Source: Sphingomonas sp.
Lineage (GTDB): Bacteria; Pseudomonadota; Alphaproteobacteria; Sphingomonadales; Sphingomonadaceae
Assembly: GCF_030145815.1 (NCBI RefSeq)
Contig: NZ_JAIXHL010000025.1
Coordinates: forward strand, 1-64,000
Length of the DNA: 64,000 bases
Direction of reading: 5' to 3'
Made by a program: the position numbers and the translations under genes
Part shown: positions 6,075-25,746 of the stretch, one piece after another
Layout: every line of letters starts with the position of its first letter
How positions within the stretch are numbered: position 1 is the stretch's first letter
The notes under the pieces: model-generated
The model's input: only the letters and a program-made list of their open reading frames with translations
Database searches by the model: none
Told to the model about the DNA's origin: nothing

Positions 6075-7390
6075 TGCCCGCGCATCCTGCCCGCGCGCGC
6101 AGCCGTTCGCGCTTCCTGATCTCAAGCCTGCTGCTTCCAGCGCTGGGCGGCTGCGTCAGCCTGACCCAGCAACGCCTGGCGCCCGGCGAAGAGCCCGTGC
6201 TGACCGGTGCCGCCGCACGGGACAACCGCACGCCGATGGACCCGGCGTTCGCGTGCTTCAATGCCCAGCTCTCGGCAGCTTCGCGGCCCCGTCTGGTAAT
6301 CGCGGTCGGCGACGTCCGCGACTTCACCGGCAAATATTCGGTCAACGAAGGCACCGCGATCACCCAGGGCGGCGCGCTCATGGTCTCCTCGGCGCTGGGC
6401 AAGCTGGCCGGCCCGGTGACGCTGGCTGAGCGCTTCGATCCGACGATCGGCGAACGCGAGCTTGGCTATACCGATCGCCGCCAGCTCGGCGACGGCAGCG
6501 CTCATGCGGTGCGCGGCGCGGACGGCGCATCGAGCGTGCCGTGGTTGCCCTATTATGGCGGGAGCATCGCCGCCTCTGACTATTACATCGTCGGCGGCAT
6601 CACTGAGCTCAACTACAATATCCGCTCGGGCGGCGCGGAAGTGCGTGTGGGACAGGTCGGCCCCAAGCTGCGCACCTATACCCAATCGGTCGCGATCGAT
6701 TTGCGCATCGTCGATACCCGTTCGCTGCTGGTCGCCAGGACAGTCAGCCTGACCAAGCAATTCACCGGCTATGAAGTCGGCTTCAACACCTTCCGCTTCT
6801 TCGGCTCCGAGCTGTTCGACGTGAATGTTGGCGCCAAGGGGCAGGAACCGTTGCAGCTCGGTATCCGCACCGTGCTCGAGGAAGCGACGATGCGGCTGGT
6901 GGGCGCGGTCGCCGGCGTCGATCCTGCGGGCTGCATCGCGATGCAGTCATGGAACCCGTCGGTCACGCTTCCGCCGATCCGCTTCGCGGAGCGATCCGCG
7001 CCGCCCTCCGGCGGCGCGGCCGAAGGCGCCGCGCTCAATAGCGCGGCGCGGTCGAGGCCGGGAAGCGGCGAGGGCGTTGCGCTCATGTTCGAGCCCGGAT
7101 CGTCGGTCCTCGGCGGCGCGGCGCTGGCCGCGCTCGACCGCGCCGCCGGGGCAGCCCGTGCGGCCCCGGTCGAACTTAGTATTTCCGGGCGGGACATCGA
7201 AGTGCTCGAGCCGGCCAAGCGCGATGCCCTGACCGACCAGCGAATCGCTGCGGTCGTCGACGCGCTTGCCGCGCGCGGCATCGCCCGGGATCGCGTCGCA
7301 CTGCGCTGGCGGCCCGCGCCGTCCGACACGAGCGTCCATCCCGGCGATCCCGGCGCGCAGGACCTGGCGCGGTTGCGCGTCGGCGGCTGA
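6074..7390 (+). CDS. CsgG/HfaB-family outer-membrane lipoprotein with a possible OmpA-like C-terminal region
   Basis: Lipobox LLLPALGGC; RLVIAVGDVRDFTGKYS... ASDYYIVGGITELNYNIRSGG resembles CsgG/HfaB; C-terminus has DALTDQRIAAVVDALAARGIARDRVALRW; TGATG overlap with previous gene. Confidence 0.75.
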   Translation: MPAHPARARSRSRFLISSLLLPALGGCVSLTQQRLAPGEEPVLTGAAARDNRTPMDPAFACFNAQLSAASRPRLVIAVGDVRDFTGKYSVNEGTAITQGGALMVSSALGKLAGPVTLAERFDPTIGERELGYTDRRQLGDGSAHAVRGADGASSVPWLPYYGGSIAASDYYIVGGITELNYNIRSGGAEVRVGQVGPKLRTYTQSVAIDLRIVDTRSLLVARTVSLTKQFTGYEVGFNTFRFFGSELFDVNVGAKGQEPLQLGIRTVLEEATMRLVGAVAGVDPAGCIAMQSWNPSVTLPPIRFAERSAPPSGGAAEGAALNSAARSRPGSGEGVALMFEPGSSVLGGAALAALDRAAGAARAAPVELSISGRDIEVLEPAKRDALTDQRIAAVVDALAARGIARDRVALRWRPAPSDTSVHPGDPGAQDLARLRVGG

Positions 7391-7481
7391 GCCAAGCCAC
7401 CCCTCGAACCCGGGAGGCGCCGACACCGCAGCCGATTTCCCCGACCGAATGCCTTCCCCCAAGAAAAGCCGGAGTATCCTC

Positions 7482-10400: not shown

Positions 10401-10547
10401 TACGGCCCGGTGTCGGCAATCGCGACGGGCAGCCTCACCATGCCGCTGACCGCGATGTCCGGCAGTCGCTTCGCGCTCACCGGCAATCAGGTGAGTGCGA
10501 TCGCCGTCGGCAACCAGGCGACCAGCACGATCACCAGCCTTCGCTGA
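7482..10547 (+). CDS. Large secreted repeat protein (HfaD-like/curlin-like candidate), 1021 aa
   Basis: Signal peptide then ~13 degenerate repeats of the form xxxxxNxVxAxAxGNxAxNxLxV, e.g. ADGNSVSAAATGNGATNTLGL, IDGNSVTAAATGNNATNTLGV, LTGNQVSAIAVGNQATSTI. Confidence 0.75.
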   Translation: MSHISRSRTSLMLGGATFALAAMLAVSPAAAQSADQVNGTRVATTHQRADHSRALSDTSGFEIVMAAPAAEASDTALSANNVSASVRANRAASDLEIDAADPSSGPIATHLASENSGITADGDALLITTQRGASSIASAISIGGMLGLNTDTSRGSSAVVSDNRLDAQALGNDATASLSLGGLEAPAAGGILGFQSNDSRSAVTATDLAAVRIGVGAATGSDIAMTGNLVRALGYGNAFASDFAVTGATAPATGSGGAASLVPSPATGDPAVSATFATLSHQEQGGTVTVRAGDDEGSDPFHLVVNGALTQSSARHEGDTLLAGGYGNHSANAMSLRIGSVSGTGAVANLTSVQRAGDADVEAGTVGGIRTNILGVASDSQASLSDNAARAVAIANLAESNQLGVEAAAIDTFGLPGSGPVGTASTGFDNSVSVTAAFGVQNVQDFGQSRIGAVSTSALKLGVLGPVERSALTADGNSVSAAATGNGATNTLGLAASALRTSADLNNVQSGNGEIQVKAGNADTPLGVVIALPATVRDSDLSVRDNGLSGTAIGDSASNAMTVNGTLFANGSGHDDAVAGPLPEGYGAAADYALASSQTLGLSGSQADAVGINSAVSGRFGMLGDFRTYGSRYVVEGNDLASTIMGNTAANRLSLEAVGLGGTDVRAPGAALSSAQYGQVIGRAAADQALVAPGSLSGSSVSLKDNSNQAYAGINEADNRLSVDAASSGALTGRSARVSIVSSPGISGDFVLGNLQFAGGSIAADATTMISNGDAGIGLAASRFEIGENMTVAEAVANRAANQVEIDTVGGEGVAGGLGSMQMNTAGVAATASLDAGYRASSLPATIDGSSLSITDNAARALASGNVADNVLDVRGTILLAGPATAEASRFEIWAEAGAPLLNAQTNYGSVTAVSHGLTGAAFNGPLAGMSQASMTIDGNSVTAAATGNNATNTLGVSPGSPASAAIVSSQVNYGPVSAIATGSLTMPLTAMSGSRFALTGNQVSAIAVGNQATSTITSLR

Positions 10548-10646
10548 TCCGCTCCGGCCGTCCCGCGCCCCCTGGGACGGCCGGCAAGCGGGAAGGGTCG
10601 CCGCGCTTCCCCCCTGCGCGGCGGCCCTTCGAACATCTGGCGCCAT

Positions 10647-11546
10647 TCAGTGCGCCGGCAGCGGCCTTCCATAGCGGCGCGCCAGCATCTCGAGAAAGTG
10701 CCTGAGGGCAGCGCTGTTATTGTCGCGGCGCCAGTGGATCGCCTGCTCGAGATAGGTGGGGCCGAATGCGTCGTGCACCGGGCGCAGCATCAACTCCTCG
10801 TCCTGGCGCGCGACGCCGGTCGTGACGATCACGCAGCCATTTCCGGCGAAGGAGAAGAGGTTTTCGCGGCGAACGTCCTGGACCTTGACGCTGGGCCCGA
10901 AGCCGGCCCCCGAAAGCCGCGATGCGACCAGATCATTGAGGAAGGGCCCGGGATCGACCTTGCTGACGATGAAGGTCGCGCCGCGCAGGTCAGTCCAATA
11001 GAGCGGATCCCGCGCGCAAAGCGGATCGCTGCGATCGAGCCCGATCATTACCTGCTCGCTCCAGAAGGACAGCGAGCGGATTCCGGGCCGTTGCGCCTGG
11101 CCGCTGATGACCGCGACGTCGAGCTGGTCGCGCTCCACGGCGCGGAGCAGCCGCGACCGGCTTCGCTCACGCGCCGCCAGCTCGACGTCGGGCCAGGCCG
11201 CGCGAAAATCGCGAATGACCGCCGAAAGGTCGCCGCTGCCAAGCGATCCGTGGAATCCAAACCGCAATTGGCCGGCCGCACCGCGCGCGATCGCCGCGCA
11301 GTCGCGGTCGAGCGCGTCGATATCCTCGACGATCTGGCGGGCCTTGCGGAGAATGCTGAGGCCCGGGTCGGTCGGCACCACACCACGGCTCGAACGGCGG
11401 AACAGCGCGACGCCGAGCCGGTCCTCCAGATACAGGATGTGCTTGCTGAGCGTCGATTGCTTTACGCCGAACCGTCCCGCGGCCTGGCTGAAGCTGCCGC
11501 TGTCGGCCGCCGCCAGCGCATAGCGAAGCAAATGAACTTCGATCAT
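10647..11546 (-). CDS. LysR-family transcriptional regulator
   Basis: MIEVHLLRYALAAADSGSFSQAAGRFGVKQSTLSKHILYLEDRLGVALFRRSSRGV, classic LysR HTH. Confidence 0.92.
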   Translation of the reverse strand: MIEVHLLRYALAAADSGSFSQAAGRFGVKQSTLSKHILYLEDRLGVALFRRSSRGVVPTDPGLSILRKARQIVEDIDALDRDCAAIARGAAGQLRFGFHGSLGSGDLSAVIRDFRAAWPDVELAARERSRSRLLRAVERDQLDVAVISGQAQRPGIRSLSFWSEQVMIGLDRSDPLCARDPLYWTDLRGATFIVSKVDPGPFLNDLVASRLSGAGFGPSVKVQDVRRENLFSFAGNGCVIVTTGVARQDEELMLRPVHDAFGPTYLEQAIHWRRDNNSAALRHFLEMLARRYGRPLPAH

Positions 11547-12326
11547 CCCCGCTCCCGCGCGCGCCGATGGACCGTGCTCCGGCTGGCGATCGCGCAAACG
11601 CTACAATCCGGCGTGTAGCGTCATGAAGCCATTCCAAGAAATGGGGTGGTTATGTGCCTGGATCAGTCGCTTGAGGACCGGCCACTTCAGCATGGTCAGG
11701 CCGGTCAGCGGAAATCTGCCACGTTCTTGCTCGCCTTGCCATGCCTGAACCTTCTCAAGGTCGATGCAATTCAACACTGCTCGGTGGAACGCGGGAGACC
11801 AGCGGTGCGTGCTCCGCGCCTTCTTGCAAAGGCGTCGGGGTCCGCGCGCTTTTTGGGCCCGCGTGGCACGCTTGCGATCGGCCGGAGGTCACGGCGGCGG
11901 CTGGCCCACAGGCCCGCGCGCACGCCGCCGCGACGGCCGTCCGCCTGCAAGGGTGCATCCCTTTCTCAATGCCTTCGGCGCGGGCGACCTGACGGTCGCC
12001 ATGACGGGGCAGATTTGTCCGAAGTGGTTGCGATTGTTGGATTTCCCAATTGGCTTGCCTTTTGAACCGTTCCAATCCTAGTCTTGGAACGCGCCGCTGA
12101 AAGTGCGGCGCCGAGGCGTGAGAACCTCGTTTGAGATCCCTATCCAGGCACTCGCGGCCGGGTGGTCGACGCGCATGTTCAGGCCGTTCGCGGCTAAAGG
12201 CGTCGGCGCAAGTCCTCAAACTTGTTCTCAACACCCGGCTTTTGCCGGACCGCTTCGCATTCGAGGAACGGGGCGTGGTGCCATGGCTGAGCGGAGCGAT
12301 GAAAACTTGGGATGCCGGGGGGACTG

Positions 12327-12884
12327 ATGTCGCCGCCCAGCCCCTCGAACCTGCCTGCGCACGGCGACACCGACGGGGGTAGCGCGGCGCCGCTCGCGCT
12401 CGAGATGATCTACCGCAATGAGCGCCACGCGCTGGTCCGGTTCATCACCCGCTTCCGGTCCAACCCGGACGATGCCGGCGACCTTGCCCAGGAGGCCTTT
12501 CTACGCCTGGCCCAGAGCGAGCAGTCGCGCAGCGAGCCGATCGCGCGTCCGCGCGCCTTTTTGCGTCAGGTGGCTCGCAACCTGCTGCGCGACCGTGCAA
12601 AGAGCGCGTTCGGCCGGGGCGAGCTGCTGCATGTTCCGTTTGATGAAGACGCCATTTCGGCGGCAAATGAAGTGGCCCGACTTGAAGCTCGCGATAGTCT
12701 CGCGCGCGTCGAGGCGGTAATGCGTCGGATGAAGCCCAAGACTCGGGAAATATTCATGGCGCATCGCCTGGACGGTCTAAGCTATAACGAGATTGCCGAA
12801 CGGACGGGAATGTCCGTATCGGGTGTCGAGAAACAGATGGCCAAGGCAATGACGATGCTTCTTCAGCACGCGGGCAAGGACTGA
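12327..12884 (+). CDS. ECF (FecI-like) sigma factor
   Basis: Sigma-70 region 2 (NPDDAGDLAQEAFLRLAQ) and region 4 (LDGLSYNEIAERTGMSVSGVEKQMAKAM); next to fecR-like gene. Confidence 0.9.
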   Translation: MSPPSPSNLPAHGDTDGGSAAPLALEMIYRNERHALVRFITRFRSNPDDAGDLAQEAFLRLAQSEQSRSEPIARPRAFLRQVARNLLRDRAKSAFGRGELLHVPFDEDAISAANEVARLEARDSLARVEAVMRRMKPKTREIFMAHRLDGLSYNEIAERTGMSVSGVEKQMAKAMTMLLQHAGKD

Positions 12885-13888
12885 TGCCTAGTCCGGGAAC
12901 GGAGGATAGCCTCAGCGTAGCGGACATGAAGCAAGCCGGGATCTGGTTCGCGCGGATGCGCAGCCCCGACGCGGAGAAGTTTCGCGCCGAGTTCGAGCGC
13001 TGGCACGCGGCTCATCCAGCACATGCCAGGGCCTATGAGGAGGCCGGCGCGCGCTGGCTGACTGCAGGCGGGATCGCCGACACGGAGATGGGGCGTAATC
13101 GCCGGCTTCCCGAACGGCGGCCCCCGATTTGGGAGATGCCAGGAGCCCGCCCAGCCTTTGCGGCGATCGCATTGGTCCTCGTCGTCCTTGGTGGCCTGTG
13201 GTTCTTCCGCTCACCCAATGAGGGTGGGGATACCCCGCAGATGGCGGCAGCCCAGCCTCAGTCGACACGGGTCGGCGAGATCCGCAGCGTGAAGCTTGCC
13301 GACGGAACGACAGTGACGCTCGACACGGACAGCGCAATCGAGGTGCGCCTGACGAAGGATTTGCGCCAGGTCCGGCTGGTGCGCGGACGCGCGCGCTTCG
13401 ATGTCGCGCACGACGCCGCGCGCCCGTTCCGGGTCGAGGCAGCCGGTCGGACCGTCACTGCGCTCGGGACGATGTTCGATGTCGGGTTCGAGCCGGGAGG
13501 AGTGCGGGTCAGCCTGCTTCGCGGTTCGGTCGAAGTCCGCGGCATCGCGCCCGCGGGGGGCGTCGCCGCGGTCACGCGGCTCGCGCCCGGCGAGTGCTTC
13601 ACCGACCGCGCGCGCCGCGCGGAGGTGGTCAAGGCATCGCCCGGGCTACAGCAATGGGTCTCCGGGATGCTCGACTTTGACGGCGTGCCGCTGGGCGACG
13701 TGCTCGAACAGACCAACCGCTACTCCCAGCGCAAGATCCGCCTGGGCGACCCTTCGCTGGCCGCGCAGCGCTTGACCGGCGGGTTCCGGCCGCTGCCCGT
13801 CGACGAACTCGCCGCCGCCCTCGCCGCAGCCTTTTCGCTGCGGGTCGAGCAATCGCCGCAAGGTGATCTGATCCTCCGGCGCGCATGA
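12884..13888 (+). CDS. FecR-family anti-sigma/regulator
   Basis: 334 aa, N-terminal region then TM (AIALVLVVLGGLWFF) and FecR domain (VKLADGTTVTLDTDSAIEVRLTKDLRQVRLVRGRARFDVAHD). Confidence 0.92.
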   Translation: MPSPGTEDSLSVADMKQAGIWFARMRSPDAEKFRAEFERWHAAHPAHARAYEEAGARWLTAGGIADTEMGRNRRLPERRPPIWEMPGARPAFAAIALVLVVLGGLWFFRSPNEGGDTPQMAAAQPQSTRVGEIRSVKLADGTTVTLDTDSAIEVRLTKDLRQVRLVRGRARFDVAHDAARPFRVEAAGRTVTALGTMFDVGFEPGGVRVSLLRGSVEVRGIAPAGGVAAVTRLAPGECFTDRARRAEVVKASPGLQQWVSGMLDFDGVPLGDVLEQTNRYSQRKIRLGDPSLAAQRLTGGFRPLPVDELAAALAAAFSLRVEQSPQGDLILRRA

Positions 13889-13968: not shown

Positions 13969-16917
13969 ATGAATGGGGAGCGATACATGAGAGTGGGGAA
14001 ATTGGGTGCGCTGGCGCTTGCCGGCACGGCGATGGTGATGATCGTGCCGTCGGCGCTCGCGCAGGAGGACGCCCGTGACTTCGACATGCCGAGCCAGGAC
14101 CTCGGCATCGCCTTGCGGGCAGTCGCGCAGCAATCGGGCACCCAGGTCATCGTGCCGACTGAGCTGGTCGCCGGGCTTCGCGCGCCCGCGCTGAAGGGCC
14201 GTTACCGAGCCGATCAGGCGGTGTCGCAGCTGCTGCGCGGCAGCCGCTTGCGGGTGGTCCTGGTCGGGACCACGCTGGTCGTGCAACGAGATGATGTCGG
14301 CCAGGAGGGAAACGAACCCACTGAAGGTGGTGGCGAAATTCTCGTCACCGGCACGCGAATCCGCGGCCAGGGCCCGGTGGGGGTTCCGGTAATCACGGTC
14401 GATCGCAAGGCGATGGCCGACAATGGCTTTTCCACCACGCAGCAGATCGTCCAGTCGATCCCGCAGAACTTCAGCGGCGGCGCCATTGAGGGAATGAGCG
14501 GGCTGATCACCGGCGCCGGCAATGGGAATGTCAGCCGCGGAGTCGGCGTCAATCTGCGCGGTCTTGGTCAGGGTTCGACCCTCGTCCTCATCAACGGGGA
14601 CAGGCCGCCACTGGGCGGGTTTTCGGGCACCTTTTCCGACCTTTCCGTCATCCCCGCCTCGGCGATCGAGCGCGTCGAAATCGTGCCGGACGGCTCTTCG
14701 GCGATCTACGGCTCCGATGCAGTGGCTGGCGTAGTCAACGTCGTCACCCGCGACAATTTCCGCGGTGCCGAAACCAGCTTCCGGATCGGGACTGCCGACG
14801 GCGACGCGCAGGAATATCAGTTCAGCCAGCTGTTCGGGGTCAAATGGTCCAGCGGACGTGCGGTGGTCGCGTATGAATTCTACCGTCGCGACAACCTCTC
14901 CGCCGACGACCGGCCCTATATCACCGACGATCTGCGGCCCTTCGGCGGCGGGGACTATCGCGGCAATTATGCGAGCCCTGGCACGATCGTCGCGGGCGGC
15001 GTCAACTTCGCGATCCCGCGCGGGCAGTTCGGCAACGGCCTCACCCCGGCGCAGCTGACACGGGGGGCGATCAATCGCGGCGATGGGTGGGACGGGGTCG
15101 ACATTCTCCCGGAGCAAGAGCGTCACTCGTTGTTCGTGTCGCTCAGCCAGAATCTGACCAGCAACCTGCGCTTCTACGTGCGAGGGCTCGCGACCTTGCG
15201 CAATTTCGACGTCGCGGTCCGCAGCGGAACCGATACGCGCCGCACGGTCCCGGTCACCAACCCTTACTACGTCGATCCGATCGGGACGCATCTGCCGATC
15301 GGCGTCAACTACAGCTTCGTTCGGGACCTCGGCAACGAGCGCTATCGCGGCGACGTGCGTGCTTATGGCGGGACCGCGGGCCTTGAACTCACGCTGGGGA
15401 CCTGGTCGGTCGACGGCCATGCGACCTGGGGCAAGCAGGACGAGCGCTACGACTATCTGAACCGCGTCAACTCGGCGCGCCTCGCGCTGGCGCTGGCAGA
15501 CACCAATCCGGCGACGGCCTATAATCTGTTGGGCGACGGACCCTCGACCAATCCGGCAACGATCGAGTCGATCCGGGGCTACACCAAGCGTCGCTGGGAC
15601 GCCGTGGTCTGGTCGGCGGCGGTGCGCGCAGACGGGCCGCTCTTCGCCCTGCCGGCGGGTGACGTGCGTCTCGCCGTAGGCGGGGAGTATCGCGAGGATC
15701 GCTACCGCGACCGCGAGAATATCTCCTACACCTCGACACTGGCGCCTCGCGCCAATGCGCTGACTCCGCTTCCCGGGCCCCGGATCGTCAAAGGCGCCTA
15801 TGCCGAACTGCGGATCCCGGTATTCGCGGAGGCGATGTCGGTGCCGCTGTTCCGCCGCCTCGATCTGTCGGCGGCGGTTCGGACCGAGCATTACAGCGAT
15901 TTCGGCAGCACGACGAACCCGAAGGTCAGCATGGCCTGGGAGCCGCTCGGTGGCGTCACGCTGCGCGGCAGCTTCGGCAAGTCCTTCCGCGCGCCTGGAG
16001 TCACCGAGTTGCGCCAGGACCCGGATACCTTTGGTCAGTTCGCCTATCCGGTGGTCGATCCCCAATCGCCAACCGGCATGTCCAACATCATGGTCATCCG
16101 CGGCAACGACCCCGACCTAGGGCCCGAGCGCGCAACCACCTGGACGCTGGGCGCGGACCTGAAACCTGCGGCATTGCCGGGGCTGCGGGCAGGCGTCACC
16201 TGGTTCAGCGTAAATTACCGCGACCGGATCGCGTCGGTCGCGTCGAGCGTGACCAACTATCTCATCAACCGAGACATCTATGCGCCGATCCTGACCTTCA
16301 ACCCGCCGGCGGCGCGGATCGCCGAGCTGTTCGCCTCGCCCTATTATCTCGACCTGACCGGCATCCCGAGCACCGCGCCGATTGTTGCGATCGCGGACGC
16401 GCGGACGCGCAACCTGTCGATCGTGAAGCAGTCGGGGCTCGACCTCGACCTGCAATATGATTTCGGTCTCGGCGGCGGGAACGCCTCGGTCGGCGCGAAC
16501 GCGACCTACATCTTCGGGATCAATCAGCAGCTGACGGCGACATCGGCGCCGGTCGATGTTGTCGATACGGTCGGCAATCCAATCGATCTCAGGGTTCGGG
16601 GGCATGCGACCTGGAACAAGGGCGGCTTCGGCGCGGCGCTGTTCGTCAACTATGCCGATGGATATCAGAACCGGACCGTAACCCCGGCGCAGCGCGTCTC
16701 GTCCTGGACGACGTTCGACCTCAACCTGAGCTACACCTTCCAGCAGCCCTCGGGTCCGTTCAAGGGGCTTCGGGTCGCGCTCAATGCGAGCAACCTGTTC
16801 GATTCCGACCCGCCATATGTGAGCTATGTCGTGGGCACCCTCGCGGTTGGCTTCGATGGCGAGAATGCGAATCCGATGGGCCGCTTCGTCGCGCTGCAGG
16901 TCACCAAGTCGTGGTGA
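13969..16917 (+). CDS. TonB-dependent receptor with N-terminal STN signalling domain (candidate lasso-peptide receptor)
   Basis: STN-like FDMPSQDLGIALRAVAQQSGTQVIVP, plug GILVTGTRIRG.../VPDGSSAIYGSDAVAGVVNVVT, C-terminal barrel; between FecR and isopeptidase. Confidence 0.92.
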   Translation: MNGERYMRVGKLGALALAGTAMVMIVPSALAQEDARDFDMPSQDLGIALRAVAQQSGTQVIVPTELVAGLRAPALKGRYRADQAVSQLLRGSRLRVVLVGTTLVVQRDDVGQEGNEPTEGGGEILVTGTRIRGQGPVGVPVITVDRKAMADNGFSTTQQIVQSIPQNFSGGAIEGMSGLITGAGNGNVSRGVGVNLRGLGQGSTLVLINGDRPPLGGFSGTFSDLSVIPASAIERVEIVPDGSSAIYGSDAVAGVVNVVTRDNFRGAETSFRIGTADGDAQEYQFSQLFGVKWSSGRAVVAYEFYRRDNLSADDRPYITDDLRPFGGGDYRGNYASPGTIVAGGVNFAIPRGQFGNGLTPAQLTRGAINRGDGWDGVDILPEQERHSLFVSLSQNLTSNLRFYVRGLATLRNFDVAVRSGTDTRRTVPVTNPYYVDPIGTHLPIGVNYSFVRDLGNERYRGDVRAYGGTAGLELTLGTWSVDGHATWGKQDERYDYLNRVNSARLALALADTNPATAYNLLGDGPSTNPATIESIRGYTKRRWDAVVWSAAVRADGPLFALPAGDVRLAVGGEYREDRYRDRENISYTSTLAPRANALTPLPGPRIVKGAYAELRIPVFAEAMSVPLFRRLDLSAAVRTEHYSDFGSTTNPKVSMAWEPLGGVTLRGSFGKSFRAPGVTELRQDPDTFGQFAYPVVDPQSPTGMSNIMVIRGNDPDLGPERATTWTLGADLKPAALPGLRAGVTWFSVNYRDRIASVASSVTNYLINRDIYAPILTFNPPAARIAELFASPYYLDLTGIPSTAPIVAIADARTRNLSIVKQSGLDLDLQYDFGLGGGNASVGANATYIFGINQQLTATSAPVDVVDTVGNPIDLRVRGHATWNKGGFGAALFVNYADGYQNRTVTPAQRVSSWTTFDLNLSYTFQQPSGPFKGLRVALNASNLFDSDPPYVSYVVGTLAVGFDGENANPMGRFVALQVTKSW

Positions 16918-19025
16918 AGCACCTGATCGGCTCGGCCGCGCTTGGCCTGATCTCCTGCTGGACCATGGCGGCGCACGCAACGCCCATGGCCTGCAGCGAG
17001 CGCCTGTTGCCGCCTCCCCCCGAGGCGGCAACAGGCCAAAGGCCGATCGCCGCCCGCGATCTGATCGAGTTGCGCGACTTCGGGATGATGTTCGACACCG
17101 CCAAACGGCCATCCTTCAGCGTCTCGCCGGATGGTCGTTATGCCGCGCTGATCTTGCGGCGCGCCGATCCAGAGAGCGACAGCTATTGTTTCGGCGTGAT
17201 GCTGGTGCCTCTGGACGGGCGAACGCGGGCAAGGCTGCTCGACGTCGGGGGTGAGTTCATCCAGGCGATGACCGATCCTTACGGCGTAACCGGCGTGCCC
17301 TCGGGCCTTCCGGTCACCGAGCCGCCGGTCTGGTCGCCCGACGGATCCTCGCTTGCCTATCTGCGCCGGGACAAGGGTCAGACCCAGATCTGGCAGGTCG
17401 GACTGGATGGTGGGCCTGCAAAGCAGGTTACGAATCTCACGACCGAGCCGCGCAGCCTCGCCTGGAGCAAAGACGGAAGAAGCCTGCTGTTCACGACGCG
17501 CAGGATGTTCGATGCCCAGGTCGCCGAGATCGATCGCGAAGGCCGGTCCGGCTATCTCTATGACGACCGCTTCTGGTCGGTCGCCTATGCGCGTCCGACA
17601 CCCCGGCTGCCGCTGGCGACCGAGATCAACGCCCTCGATCTCGCTAGCGGCAAGAGCCGGATTGTCACGAGCGATGACGCCGCCGCGATGAAGGGCGAGG
17701 CCGCGGCACGATTTCCCGAGGACGCCGGGGCGACCGCGATCTCCCCGACCGGAGGACGCGCATGGGTGGCAAGCGAGCATGCCGATATGCCCCGCGGCCC
17801 GACCTTGCTGCGCGTCGAGGTAGGCGGCAAGAAAATAGTGTGCTCAGGCGAAGCGTGCCGTGAGCCGATCGCCGGGCTCTGGTGGACCGGGCAGGATACG
17901 CTCTTCATCCTGCGCGGCGGCAACGCGGACAATGGCGGCCGCACCGCGCTTTATCGGTGGCGCCCCGGCGTCGAGCCGGGCCCGCGCCGGCTATTCGAGA
18001 CCGAGGACTTTCTGCCCGGATGTGGGCTTGCGGCCGCGGCGCTCATCTGTGCGCGAGAAACTGCTACGGGGCCTCGCGTCCTTGTCCGCTTCGATCCGGC
18101 CACAGGCCGCAACGCCGTGGTCTTCGATCCCAACCCGGAATTCGCTCAGGTGCAGCTGGGCAAGGTCGAGCGGCTGACCTGGACCGATCGCGACGGCGTC
18201 CGGACCTATGGCGATCTGACACTGCCGCCGGACCACAGGGCCGGTGAGCGCCATCCCCTCATCATCGTCCAATACATCTCACGTGGGTTTCAGCGCGGCG
18301 GACAGGGCGACGAATATCCGATCCAGCTGCTCGCGGCGCGCGGCTATGCCGTCCTCAATTTCCAGTGGCCGGCCGAAGCTCCCGAGGCCGCGGCCAAGGC
18401 CAGCGACGATGCCGCCCAGCGCGTCAAGGTCAGAAACTGGTCTGGACGGCGCCGGATCTTCACGGCACTCGACGCCGGGATCGACACCGCCATCGCAAAA
18501 GGGGTCGTGAACCCCGAGCTGGTCGGCATCACCGGCCTGAGCGATGGGGCGAGCACGGTCCAGTTTGCGCTCAACAATTCGACGCGCTTCAAGGCCGCGA
18601 TCATCTCGACTTGCTGCGATGATCCCAACGTCGTGTTCAATGCCGGCCCCGGCTATGGCAATACCGTGGTGAACGGTGTGGGCTACCCACCGGCGGGCGC
18701 AGATGGTCGCGAATTCTGGCGAGCCCAGTCGCTCGCGGTCAACGCGGTTCACCTTCGGGTGCCGCTGCTGATGAATTTGCCGGATGGCGAATTCCGGATC
18801 GCCCAGGAGGCCTTTGCTGCGCTGAAGGCGCATAACGCACCGGTCGAGATGTATGTCTATCCGGACGAGTGGCACACCAAGAACCATCCGGCGCATCGCC
18901 TGGCCATTTACGGGCGGAACATCGCCTGGTTCGATTTCTGGCTGCTCGGCCTTGAATCGGACGATCCCTCGCGCGCTGCCGAGATCGCGCGGTGGAGGGC
19001 TTTGCGGGCAGCGTCAGCCAAGTGA
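16911..19025 (+). CDS. Prolyl-oligopeptidase-family protein, candidate lasso-peptide isopeptidase
   Basis: GTG start overlapping TBDR stop; signal peptide; beta-propeller repeats (FSVSPDGRYAAL, WSPDGSSLAYL); GLSDG nucleophile elbow; adjacent to lasso B/C genes. Confidence 0.87.
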   Translation: MVKHLIGSAALGLISCWTMAAHATPMACSERLLPPPPEAATGQRPIAARDLIELRDFGMMFDTAKRPSFSVSPDGRYAALILRRADPESDSYCFGVMLVPLDGRTRARLLDVGGEFIQAMTDPYGVTGVPSGLPVTEPPVWSPDGSSLAYLRRDKGQTQIWQVGLDGGPAKQVTNLTTEPRSLAWSKDGRSLLFTTRRMFDAQVAEIDREGRSGYLYDDRFWSVAYARPTPRLPLATEINALDLASGKSRIVTSDDAAAMKGEAAARFPEDAGATAISPTGGRAWVASEHADMPRGPTLLRVEVGGKKIVCSGEACREPIAGLWWTGQDTLFILRGGNADNGGRTALYRWRPGVEPGPRRLFETEDFLPGCGLAAAALICARETATGPRVLVRFDPATGRNAVVFDPNPEFAQVQLGKVERLTWTDRDGVRTYGDLTLPPDHRAGERHPLIIVQYISRGFQRGGQGDEYPIQLLAARGYAVLNFQWPAEAPEAAAKASDDAAQRVKVRNWSGRRRIFTALDAGIDTAIAKGVVNPELVGITGLSDGASTVQFALNNSTRFKAAIISTCCDDPNVVFNAGPGYGNTVVNGVGYPPAGADGREFWRAQSLAVNAVHLRVPLLMNLPDGEFRIAQEAFAALKAHNAPVEMYVYPDEWHTKNHPAHRLAIYGRNIAWFDFWLLGLESDDPSRAAEIARWRALRAASAK

Positions 19026-20765
19026 CCGTCCTTCCCAGTGGCGGACCCATGCCTCGACTTCCACGAGCGCCATCACTTCTGGGAGCGCCTCGCTGTCCGC
19101 CATCGTTCCCTCAAGAAATCTCGTGATGCGCTCCCGATCGAGCAGCCCTTCCCGCGCGAGCGCGCCGTCGAGGAGCATTTCGCGAATGATGGTCATGTTC
19201 GCCCGGATCATCCGGTAGGCGAGGCTGCTGAACGAGACTTTGGTGCGGCGGTCGATAACGGATGCGGGCAGCCGATCCCGAAACGCTTCGCGCGCTACGG
19301 TACGGTTGTTGCCGCCGGCGCACCAGAACCAGGTCGGGATGGAGATGCAGATCTCCGCGATAGGCTGCGACATCAAAGGCGCGAGCAACGGCGCCATCGC
19401 TTCGCGGCCATAGCCTTCGAGCTGGTTCTGGATTCCAATGATCGACCAGACGTGCTTGCACTTGCCCGGCGGAATTCCGGCGGGAGCCGCGAGCCAAGGA
19501 TTTCCCTCGGGCCATGGCAGGCAGTCTCGCACATGGGGTGCCAGAAACGCATTGGTCATCGGCTTGGGCATGGCGGAGTGATTTCGGGGCCAGCGCCGGG
19601 CAGCGGCCGCGAATACCTTCCAGACGTTGGTCCGCGTCATCTGGGCGATGTCGCCAGCGGTTTCGAACACACCCTTGCCAAGACCTTCGGCAGCGAGGCG
19701 ATCAATCAAAGGAAATGCCGAATGGGTGAGACAGAACATGCTGTCCCCGCCACCGCCGCCGAAAAAGGCATCGGTGCGGAGCTCGGCGGCCAGCACCTGG
19801 ATCGGCCGATCGAGCGCTTGGGAGAATGAGCGCGCGCATGGTCTCGGCAAATCCTGCGCATCGCTGTGGCGGATGTCGACGGTGGCGGCGTCGGCGACCA
19901 GTTCGGTAAGGGGATATCCCAGGAGCTCAGCGACCGCCCGCGCCCAGGGCAGCTCGCTCGCGTCGCCGGGGGCTGGGCCGAAGGTGAGACAATGCGCTTC
20001 CGATTGCCCTGTGCGCATCCCGGCGGCAACGATCGAGGAATCGAGGCCGCCGGAAATCTCGATCAGCGGCCGTTCAAAGCATCCGGCCCACGCCCCGAGC
20101 GTCGTCGATGCCACATCGCGAAGCAACGCGATCGCGTCGGCCCTATCGGTGACGCGCACCGCAGGCTCGGCGAATGTCCAGGGCGACCAGGCGCAATGCG
20201 TCGAAGCGCCACGATCGTTCAGATCGAACACAATCCCAGGGAGAACTTCGCTGATACCGCGAAGGCAAGTGCGCGCCGGCCGGAAGTCTCGGAATACCAG
20301 CGACTGGGTGACGATCGTCCAGTCGATGACAGGTTCGAGTAGCGCTGGGCCAAACAGCAGATTCGGCCGGGACGTGAGGACATGCACACCCTCGATCTCG
20401 GCGTAATAGCAAGGGACTGTCCCCGAGGGATCGCGAATGACCTCGACCCGGTCGCCCAGCGCCCGGATCGCGACGTAGCCGCCCCAATAGGATTTCACGA
20501 GTTCCGACGCCGAGAGTTGGCCAAGCTTCGCTGGTTCGATGACTCGCGCGCTACTCTCCCGGTCGAACAGATGCCCGAATAGGATGCCGCCGCCATTCGG
20601 CAGGACTACATGCGCAGCTCTGGCATCTCCGATCACGAGAAGGCCCGGTCCCTCGACCAGGTCGACCATCGCATGCGATCGCAGCCTTTCGGCGAGACCG
20701 CGCGCGCGCTCATTTGCCTCCGGGCCCGGGACTACCACGCACGCCAGATAAGCCCCTCTGTTCAT
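19014..20765 (-). CDS. Lasso cyclase (C protein; asparagine synthetase-like)
   Basis: ISGGLDSSIVAAGM ATP-binding PP-loop motif, asparagine-synthetase-like domain; ATGA overlap with B gene. Confidence 0.92.
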   Translation of the reverse strand: MNRGAYLACVVVPGPEANERARGLAERLRSHAMVDLVEGPGLLVIGDARAAHVVLPNGGGILFGHLFDRESSARVIEPAKLGQLSASELVKSYWGGYVAIRALGDRVEVIRDPSGTVPCYYAEIEGVHVLTSRPNLLFGPALLEPVIDWTIVTQSLVFRDFRPARTCLRGISEVLPGIVFDLNDRGASTHCAWSPWTFAEPAVRVTDRADAIALLRDVASTTLGAWAGCFERPLIEISGGLDSSIVAAGMRTGQSEAHCLTFGPAPGDASELPWARAVAELLGYPLTELVADAATVDIRHSDAQDLPRPCARSFSQALDRPIQVLAAELRTDAFFGGGGGDSMFCLTHSAFPLIDRLAAEGLGKGVFETAGDIAQMTRTNVWKVFAAAARRWPRNHSAMPKPMTNAFLAPHVRDCLPWPEGNPWLAAPAGIPPGKCKHVWSIIGIQNQLEGYGREAMAPLLAPLMSQPIAEICISIPTWFWCAGGNNRTVAREAFRDRLPASVIDRRTKVSFSSLAYRMIRANMTIIREMLLDGALAREGLLDRERITRFLEGTMADSEALPEVMALVEVEAWVRHWEGRSLG

Positions 20766-21412
20766 ATCGCGAGGATCGGCGTGAAGCCCGATACATGATC
20801 GAAGCTGTCGTTGAGGATGGTATCGGCCGTCTGGAGCCAGCAATGGGCCGCGAACGGTTCAGGCGCGATGCCGAACACGATCTGCGACCCAATACCCCTC
20901 CGCGCGAGCCACTGTTCGAGCGCAAGCGAATCGAGCAGGCAGTTTCGTGCGATCGGGACCATCCGCCGGGCACGCTCGAACGCCTGGGCCTCGATGAGGG
21001 CCGCCGGACCACGCCGGGGCAGAGGGCCCCGCGTTCGGATGCCGGTCAGTATATGGTTCAGCGAGAAGACGCGCAGCGACAGTCGCATGCCCGCAACACT
21101 CACCGCGACCCGAACGGGATGTTCCTTCCCAGCTGCGGGCGCGTCGGTTTGCGCGAGACTGGTCGGGATCGTCACGCGCTCCTTGAGCACGTTGGTCGGC
21201 TCCGGATCGCCCTGTCGCAAGATGCGCGCGCGGACCAGCGTGTCGGTCACGGTCTGGGGAACGACGCCCGCATAGTTCCGATTGAGCCAGGCCAGCATCT
21301 CCCCGGCGGAAGCGGCGGGCACGCGAAAATAGCGGTCCTGCCGGATATCCAGCAAGAACAGCGCTTCGGATGCGACGCAGGCCGTCGCGTGTGGCAAGAT
21401 TCGCCAGAGCAT
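20762..21412 (-). CDS. Lasso leader-binding/protease protein (fused B1-B2, transglutaminase-like)
   Basis: N-terminal RRE-like (EALFLLDIRQDRYFRVPAASAGEMLAWLN), C-terminal Cys protease (ARNCLLDSLALEQWLARRGI... FAAHCWLQTADTILND). Confidence 0.9.
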   Translation of the reverse strand: MLWRILPHATACVASEALFLLDIRQDRYFRVPAASAGEMLAWLNRNYAGVVPQTVTDTLVRARILRQGDPEPTNVLKERVTIPTSLAQTDAPAAGKEHPVRVAVSVAGMRLSLRVFSLNHILTGIRTRGPLPRRGPAALIEAQAFERARRMVPIARNCLLDSLALEQWLARRGIGSQIVFGIAPEPFAAHCWLQTADTILNDSFDHVSGFTPILAI

Positions 21413-21476
21413 TCCGGATGCCGGATCCCTTCGGTGGTGCGGCGCCAGCTCGCTCGGAGCCGGCCGCCGCGGGCGG

Positions 21477-21608
21477 TCAGTTGTCCGAAAGGCCTTCGGG
21501 CAGGATGTACCCGACGATTTCGAACATGCCGGTGCAACTGCCCTGCGTCTCGACGCTGGCCGCGCCAAGATCGATCAGGTCAGCGACCTGCGCCTCTTCG
21601 CTTTTCAT
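21477..21608 (-). CDS. Lasso precursor A1: MKSEEAQVADLIDLGAASVETQ / GSCTGMFEIVGYILPEGLSDN
   Basis: 43 aa; Thr at leader -2, core starts with Gly, Glu at core position 8; missing from the ORF track because of length. Confidence 0.9.
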   Translation of the reverse strand: MKSEEAQVADLIDLGAASVETQGSCTGMFEIVGYILPEGLSDN

Positions 21609-21635
21609 AATGGCTCTCCGTCTTGGTGGATGGCT

Positions 21636-21656
21636 GGCCCGGCGCGCAGCCGGGCC
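21636..21656. repeat. Perfect inverted repeat GGCCCGGC-gcgca-GCCGGGCC between precursors A2 and A1
   Basis: 8-bp arms, 5-nt loop read directly. Confidence 0.85.
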
Positions 21657-21668
21657 GCCGGCTGCGGA

Positions 21669-21800
21669 TCAGTCGTCCGACAACCCATCGTGCTCGATGA
21701 GTCCGATGACGTCGAAGCTGCCGGTCATCGCGCCCTGGGTCTCGGTGCTGGCCGCGCCGAGATCGACGAGATCGACCGCCTGGTCGTGTTCGGTTTGCAT
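21669..21800 (-). CDS. Lasso precursor A2: MQTEHDQAVDLVDLGAASTETQ / GAMTGSFDVIGLIEHDGLSDD
   Basis: 43 aa; internal start within the 21669..21926 ORF; Thr at -2, Asp at core position 8. Confidence 0.92.
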   Translation of the reverse strand: MQTEHDQAVDLVDLGAASTETQGAMTGSFDVIGLIEHDGLSDD

Positions 21801-21841
21801 GGGAGTCACTCCGTCTTGCGTTGGCTTGGGGTGATCGAGTT

Positions 21842-21872
21842 GCGCCGGCCCGGCGCGGAGCCGGGCCGGCGC
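21842..21872. repeat. Perfect inverted repeat GCGCCGGCCCGGC-gcgga-GCCGGGCCGGCGC between precursors A3 and A2
   Basis: 13-bp arms, 5-nt loop read directly. Confidence 0.9.
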
Positions 21873-21879
21873 TCTCGGA

Positions 21880-22017
21880 TCAGTCGTCCGACAGGCCTTC
21901 GCGCGGGATGAGGCCGACGACGTCATACTTGCCGTCGAGGGCGCCCTGGGTCTCGACGCTGGCGACGCCGAGATCGATCAGGTCGATGGATTCGTTGGGT
22001 TCGCGGTCCATGGTCAT
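21880..22017 (-). CDS. Lasso precursor A3: MTMDREPNESIDLIDLGVASVETQ / GALDGKYDVVGLIPREGLSDD
   Basis: 45 aa (or 43 aa from internal ATG at 22011); Thr at -2, Asp at core position 8. Confidence 0.92.
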   Translation of the reverse strand: MTMDREPNESIDLIDLGVASVETQGALDGKYDVVGLIPREGLSDD

Positions 22018-22064
22018 TCTCCTGTCGCGAGATGCGACCAAGAGAAGATTCGCCAAGCCGGCGG

Positions 22065-22095
22065 TTATAAGAAGTTTATAATCGGATTATAATCG
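22065..22095. promoter_or_regulatory. Triple TTATAA box array at exact 11-bp spacing upstream of the precursor operon
   Basis: TTATAAgaagtTTATAAtcggaTTATAAtcg at 22065, 22076, 22087, between gntR stop (22105) and A3 start (22017). Confidence 0.6.
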
Positions 22096-22104
22096 AACGG
22101 CCGA

Positions 22105-22683
22105 TCAAATGGCTTCCCGCCGCCGGATTAGCTCTGCGACCGCCTTCATCCTGCGAAGATGATAGCGCCGAATTGCTTGGGGGAGCGCGCTGTCGAAGAC
22201 GGAAAGCTCGTCGAGTTCTCCGATGATGGGCTCAAGAACCTCCGACTCGATGAATCGGAACGGATGCAGACGGTCGCCAACGCTCGAAATCGCCAGACGG
22301 ATCTCGCGGTTCGGTGCCATCTCGCCGATTCGTTCGAACAGCAGCGCCGTTCTTCCGGCGATCGTTTCATCGTCCGGCTCGTCGATCACGAGCGGGTTTC
22401 GCGCGGTCCGCACCGCCATGAGCACCAGTGCGGAATGCCACTCGTAAAGGTCGCGCAGCCCCGCTTCACTGAGCCGCGGAACATGGAACCCCTCGCCGGC
22501 GCTTGCCTCGACGAGGTGCTCGCCGACCAGCCGTTGCAGGACGTCGCGTACCGGCGTCATGCTGACGCCCAGCTCCTCTGCGAGCCGATTGGCTTCCAGG
22601 CGCGCGCCCGGTGCATACCGGCCCTCGCGCAGCATGCGCTTCAACGTCGCGTAGCTGCGCTCCATCGCCTGGAGCGGACTCAT
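22105..22683 (-). CDS. GntR-family transcriptional regulator
   Basis: MSPLQAMERSYATLKRMLREGRYAPGARLEANRLAEELGVSMTPVRDVLQRLVGEHLVEASAGEGFHVPRLS, GntR wHTH. Confidence 0.9.
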   Translation of the reverse strand: MSPLQAMERSYATLKRMLREGRYAPGARLEANRLAEELGVSMTPVRDVLQRLVGEHLVEASAGEGFHVPRLSEAGLRDLYEWHSALVLMAVRTARNPLVIDEPDDETIAGRTALLFERIGEMAPNREIRLAISSVGDRLHPFRFIESEVLEPIIGELDELSVFDSALPQAIRRYHLRRMKAVAELIRRREAI

Positions 22684-23564
22684 GCGTCGACCTCCTGGCC
22701 GAGCCGGTGGGCCGTGACGGCCTCGGCCTGGTCGGGCCGGAGCGCGTCCACCGCGCCGATGTGCTCGGGGAGGTTGCCGGTAAGGAGGAGGGACGGGCAT
22801 ACGCCCTCATAGTTGCCGAGGTTGGGGCGGTGCTGACGGTAGCCGACCAGGGCGGCGAGCTCCGGCGCGAAGCCGCGCGCGACAGCGGGGGGATAGGCGA
22901 GCCACTGGTTTTCATAGGGCTTGAGCCATCCGAGGCAGTAGCTGACTACGACCGCCTTGCGGATCTCGTCGCTCCGATTGGCGCCGGCGCCGTGGAGCGT
23001 CGAGCCGAGGAACAGGAACGCGTCCCCGGGTCCGAATTCGGCGACGACCGAGCGCTCGGGCATCGTTTCGTTCAGCGCCTCGCGCCCGTGGCTGCCAGGA
23101 TAGAGGACCGTGCCGCCATTCTCGACTGTGAAGGGTGTCAGCGGCCACATGACGTTGACCAGATACTCGACCTCGCCCTTCACACCCTGCCACATATCCT
23201 GATCGCGGTGCGGAAATTGGGCGGGCGCCCCGGGATGCAGCGCGATGGCCTGCATCAGGTTCAGCTGAATCGTATCGCACCACGGCGAGAGCGTGCGATC
23301 GGCGACGGCCAAGATCAGCGGTTCGAGAGCGAGGTCGGCGGCGTGTGGCGAGCGCTTCAACAGGCTCCCGAACCGCTTGGTGCGACCGCCATAGAAATCG
23401 CCCTCGCAAAAGGGCGTCGCCTCATAGGTCGGCGCGAGATCGGCGGCGAGCGCCTCGATTGTGTCGCGCGGCAAGGCATTGGGGATCGCGCACCACCCCT
23501 GAGTCCTAAGCAATTCGAGGGCGGCGTCACAGCCGGCGGGCGTGGCGGTCGGATCTTCGGTCAT
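22680..23564 (-). CDS. Phytanoyl-CoA dioxygenase (PhyH)-family Fe(II)/2OG oxygenase
   Basis: FPHRDQDMW (HxD) ... GSTLHGAGANRSDEIRKAVVVSY; stop overlaps gntR start. Confidence 0.85.
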   Translation of the reverse strand: MTEDPTATPAGCDAALELLRTQGWCAIPNALPRDTIEALAADLAPTYEATPFCEGDFYGGRTKRFGSLLKRSPHAADLALEPLILAVADRTLSPWCDTIQLNLMQAIALHPGAPAQFPHRDQDMWQGVKGEVEYLVNVMWPLTPFTVENGGTVLYPGSHGREALNETMPERSVVAEFGPGDAFLFLGSTLHGAGANRSDEIRKAVVVSYCLGWLKPYENQWLAYPPAVARGFAPELAALVGYRQHRPNLGNYEGVCPSLLLTGNLPEHIGAVDALRPDQAEAVTAHRLGQEVDA

Positions 23565-23573
23565 GGCAGTACC

Positions 23574-24200
23574 TCAGGCGTTGGCGGCGCGGCGCGCCGG
23601 CATTTCGTGCGCGATGATCGGCGACCACACGCCGCCCGCCGCAAGCTCGGCCGGCGTCGCCGGCGTGATCGTGATCTCGAGGGCTCCGAGCAGCGATCGC
23701 CCGCTGGGTAGGGGTTCGCCCAGCGCCCGGCATTGCCAGCCAAAGCCCAGTATCTGCTGGAGCCAGGCCATCTCGGCGACGCCGGTATAGGTATCGATCC
23801 CGGTCTCGAGGGCGTGCGTTGCCAGGGCCGAGACAAGCTGGTTGCGCCTATGGCGCCGCTCCGGAGCGCGCAGCTGCCGGCCCAGGCAGAAGCGGGTAAT
23901 CTCCCAGACGCGCGGCCCGCGCGGGACATTACCGTCGCAGAGCGCGGGGAACAGCGAGTCCAGGATGTGCGGCCGGGTCGTGGGCAACAGCCTCGCCGAG
24001 GCCAGATGCTCATGGTCGAGGTCAGTCAGGATTAGGTAGCGGGCATGCTCGTCATCGAACTGGTCGATTTCGAATCGGCCGTCCAGGGCCGGCAGGTCCC
24101 ATTTGAGCAGATCGATGAAGACGCTTTTCCGGGCGGCGAACATCGACTGGAAGACCATGTCGCCGATGCTGTTGACGGTGGAGTCGACGAGAAGAACCAT
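23574..24200 (-). CDS. LuxI-family acyl-homoserine-lactone synthase
   Basis: MFAARKSVFIDLLKWDLP...EIDQFDDEHARYLILTD...HLASARLLPTTRPHILDSLFPALC...WEITRFCL, conserved LuxI residues. Confidence 0.92.
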   Translation of the reverse strand: MVLLVDSTVNSIGDMVFQSMFAARKSVFIDLLKWDLPALDGRFEIDQFDDEHARYLILTDLDHEHLASARLLPTTRPHILDSLFPALCDGNVPRGPRVWEITRFCLGRQLRAPERRHRRNQLVSALATHALETGIDTYTGVAEMAWLQQILGFGWQCRALGEPLPSGRSLLGALEITITPATPAELAAGGVWSPIIAHEMPARRAANA

Positions 24201-24208
24201 GGAGCAAA

Positions 24209-24228
24209 CCCCTCGAGGTGACGAGGGG
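24209..24228 (-). promoter_or_regulatory. Hairpin overlapping the luxI Shine-Dalgarno
   Basis: Minus strand CCCCTCG-TCACCT-CGAGGGG-TTTGCTCC-ATG; perfect 7-bp arms. Confidence 0.65.
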
Positions 24229-24281
24229 ACAAGCATCCCGATCAGGCACTCGGCGGGGTATTCCAAGAAATGGGGATAGCG

Positions 24282-25037
24282 TCAGTGCCGCAGGATGTCG
24301 GAGAAGCTGATCAGACCGTCGAACAGGGCGCGGACGGCCAGCAAGGCGCGCTTTTGGACGCCGTACCGTTCCCGCGCATGCTTCAGGTGCTGGATGACCG
24401 TTTCGTGCCCCACGCCCAGGATGACCGATATTTCCCAGTCGGTCTTCCCGCGCGCCGCCCAGAGCACGCAATCGCGCTGCCGGTCGGTCAGGATCGGTGC
24501 GCTCTCTACCGCGAAGTCACGCGCGCCGGACAGCCGCCTCGCAGCCTCGAAGGCGAAACCGCCGATTAGCTGGCAGACGAACTGGAATTCCTCTGGAAAG
24601 GCGTCGCCGGCGCCAACGGCGAACGAGCAGGAGCCGAGCGTCTCGCCGGGTATGCTCGACGGGATCGTGAATCCGTCACCGATGCCGACGCGGTACGCCT
24701 CATCCAGGACGATGCGGTCCTCGGGTGTCATCCTGATCATGTCGGGGACGTTCGCCCAGGCAAAGCCTACGCTGGCGAGGTGGCAGGCGCGATGAATTGG
24801 GTCGCATTTTCCCAGGCCGTTCGCGTCGAACCAATCCTGCCAGCTGGAAGGGTAGTTGTGGATTCGAACTGCGGCGCCGTCCTCGCGGCGAAAGTCGATA
24901 TGGTGGGTCAGCGCGAAGTACCGAATGCCCATCGCCTCGCAGCAGTCGATCAGCGCGCCGCGGAGCACATCGACACTCGTTGCGGAGCGCGCGCTTTCCA
25001 CGAATGTTTCGGCAATCGCGAACCTAGGCATACCCAC
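24282..25037 (-). CDS. LuxR-family regulator with autoinducer-binding domain
   Basis: N-terminal autoinducer domain (HNYPSSWQDWFDANGLGKCDPIHRAC) and C-terminal HTH (LTDRQRDCVLWAARGKTDWEISVILGVGHETVIQHLKHARERYGV). Confidence 0.93.
   Translation of the reverse strand: MGMPRFAIAETFVESARSATSVDVLRGALIDCCEAMGIRYFALTHHIDFRREDGAAVRIHNYPSSWQDWFDANGLGKCDPIHRACHLASVGFAWANVPDMIRMTPEDRIVLDEAYRVGIGDGFTIPSSIPGETLGSCSFAVGAGDAFPEEFQFVCQLIGGFAFEAARRLSGARDFAVESAPILTDRQRDCVLWAARGKTDWEISVILGVGHETVIQHLKHARERYGVQKRALLAVRALFDGLISFSDILRH

Positions 25038-25671: not shown

Positions 25672-25746
<75 letters not shown>

Follow-up and report, generated by a model that had tools for sequence, protein, structure and literature searches.

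The 64,000 nt stretch of Sphingomonas sp. DNA analysed here (the window; contig G000:C25 of a 4.66 Mb draft genome) carries a co-directional block of minus-strand genes in the order luxR-luxI-phyH-gntR-A3-A2-A1-B-C (nt 25037–19014), which converges with plus-strand genes for an isopeptidase, a TonB-dependent receptor, a FecR-type regulator and an extracytoplasmic function (ECF) sigma factor. All of the families were matched in profile searches. By its predicted gene content the locus is an isopeptidase-type lasso peptide cluster of the benenodin/subterisin family joined to a canonical acyl-homoserine lactone (AHL) circuit, and it probably represents a quorum-sensing (QS)-lasso supercluster of the Sphingomonadales. 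An earlier sequence-only reading had described the minus-strand block from luxR to C, and each gene named in it matches its own family; the interval then assigned to the cluster (nt 19014–25037) covers this block but omits the convergent isopeptidase, receptor, FecR and sigma genes.

The luxR gene (nt 24282–25037, minus strand) specifies an AHL-binding transcription factor with autoinducer-binding (PF03472, Autoind_bind, 3.8e-24) and helix-turn-helix (PF00196, GerE) domains and a LasR-like alignment, the domain composition of a LuxR-LuxI circuit. The AHL synthase gene, luxI (nt 23574–24200, minus strand), matches PF00765 (Autoind_synth, 3.2e-19), and its signature residues R24, F28, W34, D46, D49, R70, E100 and R103, which we take to be the catalytic positions, are invariant in the homologue alignment. 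The ATG of luxI is most likely at nt 24200, making the gap to luxR 81 nt and not 15 nt as previously given, and the A3 start has likewise been corrected, most likely to nt 22011. Other junctions had been described accurately: luxI is separated by 9 nt (nt 23573–23565) from phyH (nt 22680–23564, minus strand; PF05721, 2.5e-26), a gene for an Fe/2-oxoglutarate oxygenase; phyH and the gene for a QS-type GntR regulator (gntR, nt 22105–22683, minus strand; PF00392, 3.3e-16) share a 4-nt overlap, ATGA (nt 22683–22680); and a second ATGA joins B to C (nt 20765–20762).

The precursor genes A3 (nt 21880–22011), A2 (nt 21669–21800) and A1 (nt 21477–21608), all on the minus strand, exceed the 33-bit cut-off of NF033522 (benenodin family) with 40.3, 38.4 and 36.1 bits, respectively, and A3 also matches PF24178 (9e-16). 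Their predicted cores are GALDGKYDVVGLIPREGLSDD for A3 (ring G1-D8, calculated lasso [M+H]+ 2171.098), GAMTGSFDVIGLIEHDGLSDD for A2 (ring G1-D8, 2130.965) and GSCTGMFEIVGYILPEGLSDN for A1 (ring G1-E8, 2183.999). The leader/core junctions read VETQ/G or TETQ/G, and the Thr at −2, the Gly at the first core position and the D8, D8 and E8 residues (Asp or Glu at ring position 7–9) are those of isopeptidase-type precursors. Such clusters also carry B and C, and both are present. The leader protease gene B (nt 20762–21412, minus strand; NF033537, 5.4e-19, 68.9 bits; PF13471, 5.8e-19) specifies a protein with a transglutaminase-fold C-terminus and an assumed RRE-like N-terminus, and C (nt 19014–20765, minus strand; PF00733, Asn_synthase, 3.4e-24) specifies an asparagine-synthetase-like lasso cyclase with an SGGLDSS motif. 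The end of C overlaps by 12 nt that of the lasso isopeptidase gene of the Atxe2 family (nt 16911–19025, plus strand; NF033523, 732.7 bits, cut-off 400), the product of which matches the AtxE2 structure (PDB 5txc) at 6e-132. The remaining plus-strand genes, also expected of an isopeptidase-type cluster, specify a TonB-dependent receptor with an STN signalling domain (nt 13969–16917; PF00593, PF07715, PF07660), a FecR-type anti-sigma regulator (nt 12884–13888; PF04773, 3.5e-21) and an ECF sigma factor of the FecI type (nt 12312–12884; PF08281, 2.8e-14; PF04542, 7.9e-11).

The proximity of luxI to lasso genes was assessed in 301 genomes of the family, in which 121 luxI and at least 151 lasso B genes were compared, chance expectations assuming genomes of 3.6 Mb. 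For at least 20 of the 121 luxI genes, a lasso B gene is found less than 5 kb away (0.32 expected by chance), and for at least 30 less than 15 kb away (0.97 expected). In each of the 20 closest pairs B is downstream of luxI and on its strand, mostly at a distance of 2.1–2.6 kb, and in the window's own genome all three luxI genes are within 10 kb of lasso B. When named genomes were searched with luxI sequence as the sole criterion, the 80 loci closest to the window luxI were obtained, which are not a random sample; a lasso cluster is present at 62 of them, and at 59 in the window layout. The nearest are those of Sphingomonas canadensis (86% identity), S. soli, Sphingomonas sp. R-74633, S. spermidinifaciens and S. 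caeni. Linked genera include Sphingomonas, Sphingobium, Novosphingobium, Sphingopyxis, Sphingosinicella and Sandaracinobacter, as well as Tsuneonella, Aurantiacibacter, Stakelama, Hephaestia and others. This survey of relatives strongly contradicts the possibility, raised with the sequence-only reading, that luxR and luxI are conserved beside the lasso cluster in none of them. The accompanying statement that an AHL synthase/receptor pair is not a standard part holds for lasso clusters generally, but within this family the pair recurs. At the level of the class, 289 genomes were searched, 285 of them outside the family; five of the latter hold both genes, in no case on one contig. Two loci with sphingomonad-like luxI-phyH (L197 and L226) come from genomes labelled Actinobacteria and Methylocystaceae, and are probably misbinned contigs.

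Two arrangements of the linked loci can be distinguished. In layout I, luxR-luxI-phyH-gntR-A-B-C is convergent with the isopeptidase, TonB receptor, FecR and sigma genes. In layout II, the luxR-luxI-phyH-gntR block lies beyond the TonB receptor and sigma genes, and A-B-C lacks its own gntR while retaining the promoter element described below; the exceptions are L093 (contig C12 of the window's own genome) and L097, in which gntR is retained before A. Isopeptidase clusters without luxI are mostly gntR-A-B-C, and several of those fetched have no gntR before A. The precursor core GPPGDRIEFGVLAQLPG of two QS-linked Novosphingobium loci (L259 and L262) is identical to what we take to be the subterisin core, so that a lasso peptide of known chemistry appears to be under the QS-linked type of control. 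None of the fetched loci encodes the sequences taken as the cores of sphingonodin I/II, sphingopyxin I/II, zucinodin and benenodin-1.

Two conserved DNA elements accompany these genes. A palindromic motif search returned a 20-bp dyad close to cATCCCCAgtacTGGGGATg in the luxR-luxI gap. With a matrix trained without members of the genus, the candidate lux box of the window, TATCCCCATTTCTTGGAATA (nt 24259–24278, minus strand), which is 3 nt past the luxR stop and ahead of luxI as required at the sequence level for a LuxR-LuxI circuit, scored 28.0 bits, the best of the 64-kb window (shuffled maximum 11.7 ± 1.9). Among 58 independent named loci, defined by having no 40-mer in common with the training loci in a sampled comparison, 47 have their best site between −25 and +110 relative to the luxR stop. 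Another dyad, CCCCTCGtcacctCGAGGGG (nt 24228–24209), resembles a lux box by eye but was rejected: among the fetched luxR-luxI gaps, that of the closest relative, L128, is the only one to share it, and the conserved site is farther upstream. The second-best match in the window, CCACCCCATTTCTTGGAATG (nt 11630–11649; 14.6 bits, within the shuffled range), is about 30 nt ahead of a LysR-type gene (nt 10647–11597, minus strand) that is possibly another LuxR target; as a member of the cluster this gene was rejected, being found in no other fetched locus. In layout II loci L089–L092 and L098–L100, a second lux box precedes the ECF sigma gene; beside it is an upstream gene for a protein with a RovC-type DNA-binding domain (PF10074, checked in L089), and the receptor half may also be AHL-controlled in these loci.

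The second element was found upstream of A by a non-palindromic search, and consists of aTATAn7TATAAAnTTC followed by a third TATA-like unit, the units being 11 bp apart. It totals 1310 bits over 52 loci, compared with 588 for shuffled sequence. The copy in the window, TTATAATCCGATTATAAACTTC (nt 22071–22092, minus strand), a candidate operator for the QS-type GntR, scored 28.5 and is the top site of the 64 kb (shuffled maximum 15.8). The named set has 63 sites that score above 18 bits: 58 at A or B, one at C, one at luxR and three elsewhere. In L076 (contig C19 of the window's own genome, at 3952) and L213 (at 8994), the element also occurs 146 nt before luxR, a hint that in this subgroup GntR may act back on the signalling genes.

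The presence of this element follows the subtype of GntR. A gntR tree separates nearly all gntR genes of luxI operons from most of those found in luxI-less clusters, with weak support at its deepest split; the window gntR groups with other luxI-operon gntR genes, with weak placement. Of 30 clusters that hold a QS-type gntR in the locus, 28 have the element at 13 bits or more; of 10 with an ordinary gntR at A, L093 and L097 among them, one does (Fisher 2e-6, uncorrected for relatedness, the loci not being independent). The GntR groups were set after inspection, and some layout I loci had also been used to train the element matrix. Where clusters lack both gntR and luxI, QS-type gntR was found elsewhere in the genome in four of six (G146, G173, G255 and G300), and a seventh cluster, in G087, has neither element nor QS-type gntR, as the model given below predicts. 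In G173, the QS-type gntR is about 43 kb from the lasso cluster, behind a luxR-phyH pair at which no luxI was detected (L275, G173:C13:74000-93999), while the lasso cluster has the A element and no gntR of its own. That the element tracks QS-type gntR across clusters, even when the two are apart, is the principal reason to suppose that GntR, and not read-through alone, would carry the signal to A. The sequence-only reading had treated GntR as a second input; the regulator is indeed present, but judged from these patterns it is more likely a relay between quorum sensing and the A promoter, inside the luxI operon, than an independent input.

A simpler arrangement, in which LuxR-AHL drives one transcript from luxI to C from the lux box with GntR as a minor modulator, would agree with the co-directional genes, their short gaps or overlaps (gntR and A3 are 93 nt apart) and the single lux box upstream of the whole unit. 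It is nonetheless improbable. The gntR-A gap is occupied by a strongly conserved, separate promoter element, and in layout I loci L087, L088, L210 and L216 gntR and A are separated by 1.6–4.4 kb. Moreover, in layout II the TonB receptor gene separates the signalling block from A, which makes read-through into A impossible, and the element is still kept.

The overall model that we consider probable, based on gene order and the two elements, is one in which quorum sensing acts on luxI-phyH-gntR, and GntR in turn on A-B-C. LuxI would synthesise AHL, and LuxR with AHL would bind the lux box between luxR and luxI and activate the overlapping luxI-phyH-gntR unit, giving positive feedback. GntR would then bind the TATA-repeat element before A3 and turn on A3-A2-A1-B-C, assisted in the window layout by read-through. 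B and C would convert the three precursors into 21-residue lasso peptides, and the isopeptidase, TonB receptor, FecR and ECF sigma half would re-import the lasso peptide and open it, as in other isopeptidase clusters. The gene content, the conserved linkage, the two DNA elements and the correspondence of the A element with the GntR subtype were computed directly. AHL production, the binding of LuxR and GntR, the sign of GntR, density control and uptake are what we infer, and the arrangement suggests that the lasso peptides are made when cells are crowded.

The activator sign of GntR is an assumption of this model. GntR-family members are often repressors, and the element is upstream of and near the likely −10 box, a position compatible with repression. 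If GntR repressed A, quorum sensing would delay or pulse lasso production. Such incoherent control is unlikely, and activation fits better since, by inspection, the A promoter has no strong conserved −35 hexamer.

Several observations weigh against a cascade from AHL to lasso peptide. Lasso genes were not seen at 18 of the 80 nearest luxI loci, at some of them because the contigs are short. The nearest relative in the genus, L128 (G247, ~8200–12000; 82% identity), retains luxR, luxI and phyH at the same site of the chromosome but has no lasso half, and the signalling block can therefore have another use. No lux box of at least 11 bits was found at the A promoter in layout I, except for one inside the A reading frame of L083. 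The DNA-binding half of LuxR has a Q at the usually conserved E of TraR-type regulators, and the weak placement of the window gntR was mentioned above. Finally, the gntR-less cluster of G284 has the element and no QS-type gntR in the genome, and G226 has ordinary gntR only. As a separate observation, the lasso half in L128 is replaced by what, judged by eye, are apparent conjugative-transfer (VirB/Trb-type) genes; the site shared by L128 and the window adjoins an aminopeptidase P gene, and the window has a tRNA-Thr gene at nt 25672–25746.

Distance correlations over 67 loci were 0.82 for LuxI-PhyH, 0.76 for C-isopeptidase, 0.52 for LuxI-C and 0.39 for PhyH-isopeptidase; the first three exceed 2000 permutations, species relationship not being factored out. 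The first three values point to two modules that are largely, but not strictly, co-inherited. The moderate LuxI-C value would suit a luxR-luxI-phyH module that is mobile or hitchhiking near a tRNA gene, with lasso expression independent of AHL, as would L128 and the occurrence of luxR-luxI-phyH without lasso genes (phyH is downstream of luxI at 24 of 39 unlinked luxI loci). That proximity is all there is to the association is, however, very unlikely, given that all 20 closest pairs share one order and orientation, that linkage occurs in many genera and that element and GntR correspond even in clusters where they are apart. The same data bear on phyH. It is also downstream of luxI in almost every linked locus, none of the 15 luxI-less isopeptidase clusters examined has it near A-B-C, and we accordingly assign it to the signalling block. 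Like PhyH, CanE is an Fe/2-oxoglutarate enzyme, and it hydroxylates the lasso peptide canucin A (PMC9266682), which would favour PhyH as a lasso tailoring hydroxylase, luxI and phyH travelling with the cluster for that chemistry. This explanation is highly improbable and was rejected: phyH does not travel with the lasso genes as a canucin-type tailoring oxygenase would, and the associations of phyH (0.82 with LuxI against 0.39 with the isopeptidase, and its distribution over unlinked and luxI-less loci) favour luxI.

Within the lasso operon, the A3-A2 gap (nt 21801–21882) contains a hairpin of −45.5 kcal/mol (z = −4.97), perhaps an mRNA stabiliser keeping A above B and C. Hairpins after A2 (nt 21609–21672) and A1 (nt 21413–21480) are not significant, and the hairpins after the precursor genes are without a T-run. 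There is also a short 5′-leader hairpin, a few to about 20 nt ahead of the A start (nt 22012–22045, minus strand, in the window; equivalents in L183–L260), the arms of which vary yet pair (GCTGC/GCAGC, GCCGC/GCGGC, GTCGC/GCGAC and GCCAC/GTGGC); stems of at least 5 occur in 96% of loci compared with 54% of shuffles. Together with the precursor-gene hairpins, it could set the level of A above that of B and C. Near the sigma side of the cluster is a repetitive open reading frame of 1093 residues (nt 7266–10547, plus strand) without a Pfam match.

Much of the locus resembles known systems. The isopeptidase-type clusters of astexin/AtxE2, benenodin-1, sphingopyxin and subterisin likewise have A-B-C convergent with isopeptidase and TonB receptor genes, FecI/FecR, a GntR gene before A and no ABC (ATP-binding cassette) exporter (PMC9266682). 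The missing adjacent exporter and the GntR gene before A, both recorded in the sequence-only reading, are thus as described but ordinary, and the same applies to phyH, which is known after luxI in sphingomonads (PMC3704786, PMC4288048, PMC5012321). The recovery of subterisin from culture supernatant is cited in PMC11006600, so export without an ABC transporter is known. The window differs from these clusters in its complete luxR-luxI-phyH ahead of gntR, in its gntR subgroup and in its A element. The order luxR-luxI-phyH is that of the sphingomonad novR-novI-phyH loci (Gan 2013, 2015, 2016; PMC3704786, PMC4288048, PMC5012321), where three related NovI enzymes produce AHLs (C8, C8-OH and C10-OH) and, at one locus, a GntR gene is directly downstream of phyH, no lasso genes being named (PMC5012321). 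Unlike in those three reports, which do not mention lasso peptides, the linked biosynthetic genes are recognised here. The occurrence of luxR/luxI within biosynthetic clusters has been described generally (Brotherton 2018, PMC5872303), in a study whose main text mentions neither lasso peptides nor sphingomonads; the present loci add a further regulator together with two conserved DNA elements. For the Antarctic Sphingomonas So64.6b, an antiSMASH 'lassopeptide-homoserine lactone' hybrid reflects the same juxtaposition, given as a table entry, the passages found on it containing no analysis of linkage, order, regulators or conservation (PMC9716278). No analysis of AHL-linked lasso clusters, their elements or their spread was found in the open-access literature, most subscription journals and bioRxiv lying outside the search, and an earlier description may exist.

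The function of isopeptidase-type lasso peptides was called enigmatic in a 2022 review (PMC9266682), and the targets of sphingomonad AHLs are largely unknown even though luxI-phyH loci were described more than ten years ago. The linkage gives each field a target in the other, namely readout genes for AHL mutants and a signal to wake silent lasso clusters, and it provides a defined cascade with exact coordinates for the lux box, GntR and the A-promoter element. There is a possible bearing on pollutant breakdown, as phenanthrene use is lost on mutation of lasso B in Sphingomonas BPH (PMC11006600) and a Croceicoccus strain mutated in quorum sensing shows less degradation of such compounds (PMC7432010), but a connection between the two effects is speculation. 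More broadly, and quite tentatively, these loci may serve a two-tier communication in which AHL, acting via GntR, releases a strain-specific lasso peptide as a second signal or shared carrier, which its cognate TonB receptor would re-import, the isopeptidase would open and FecR and the ECF sigma factor would report. If that were true, lasso peptides would be a main output of quorum sensing in a large part of the Sphingomonadales.

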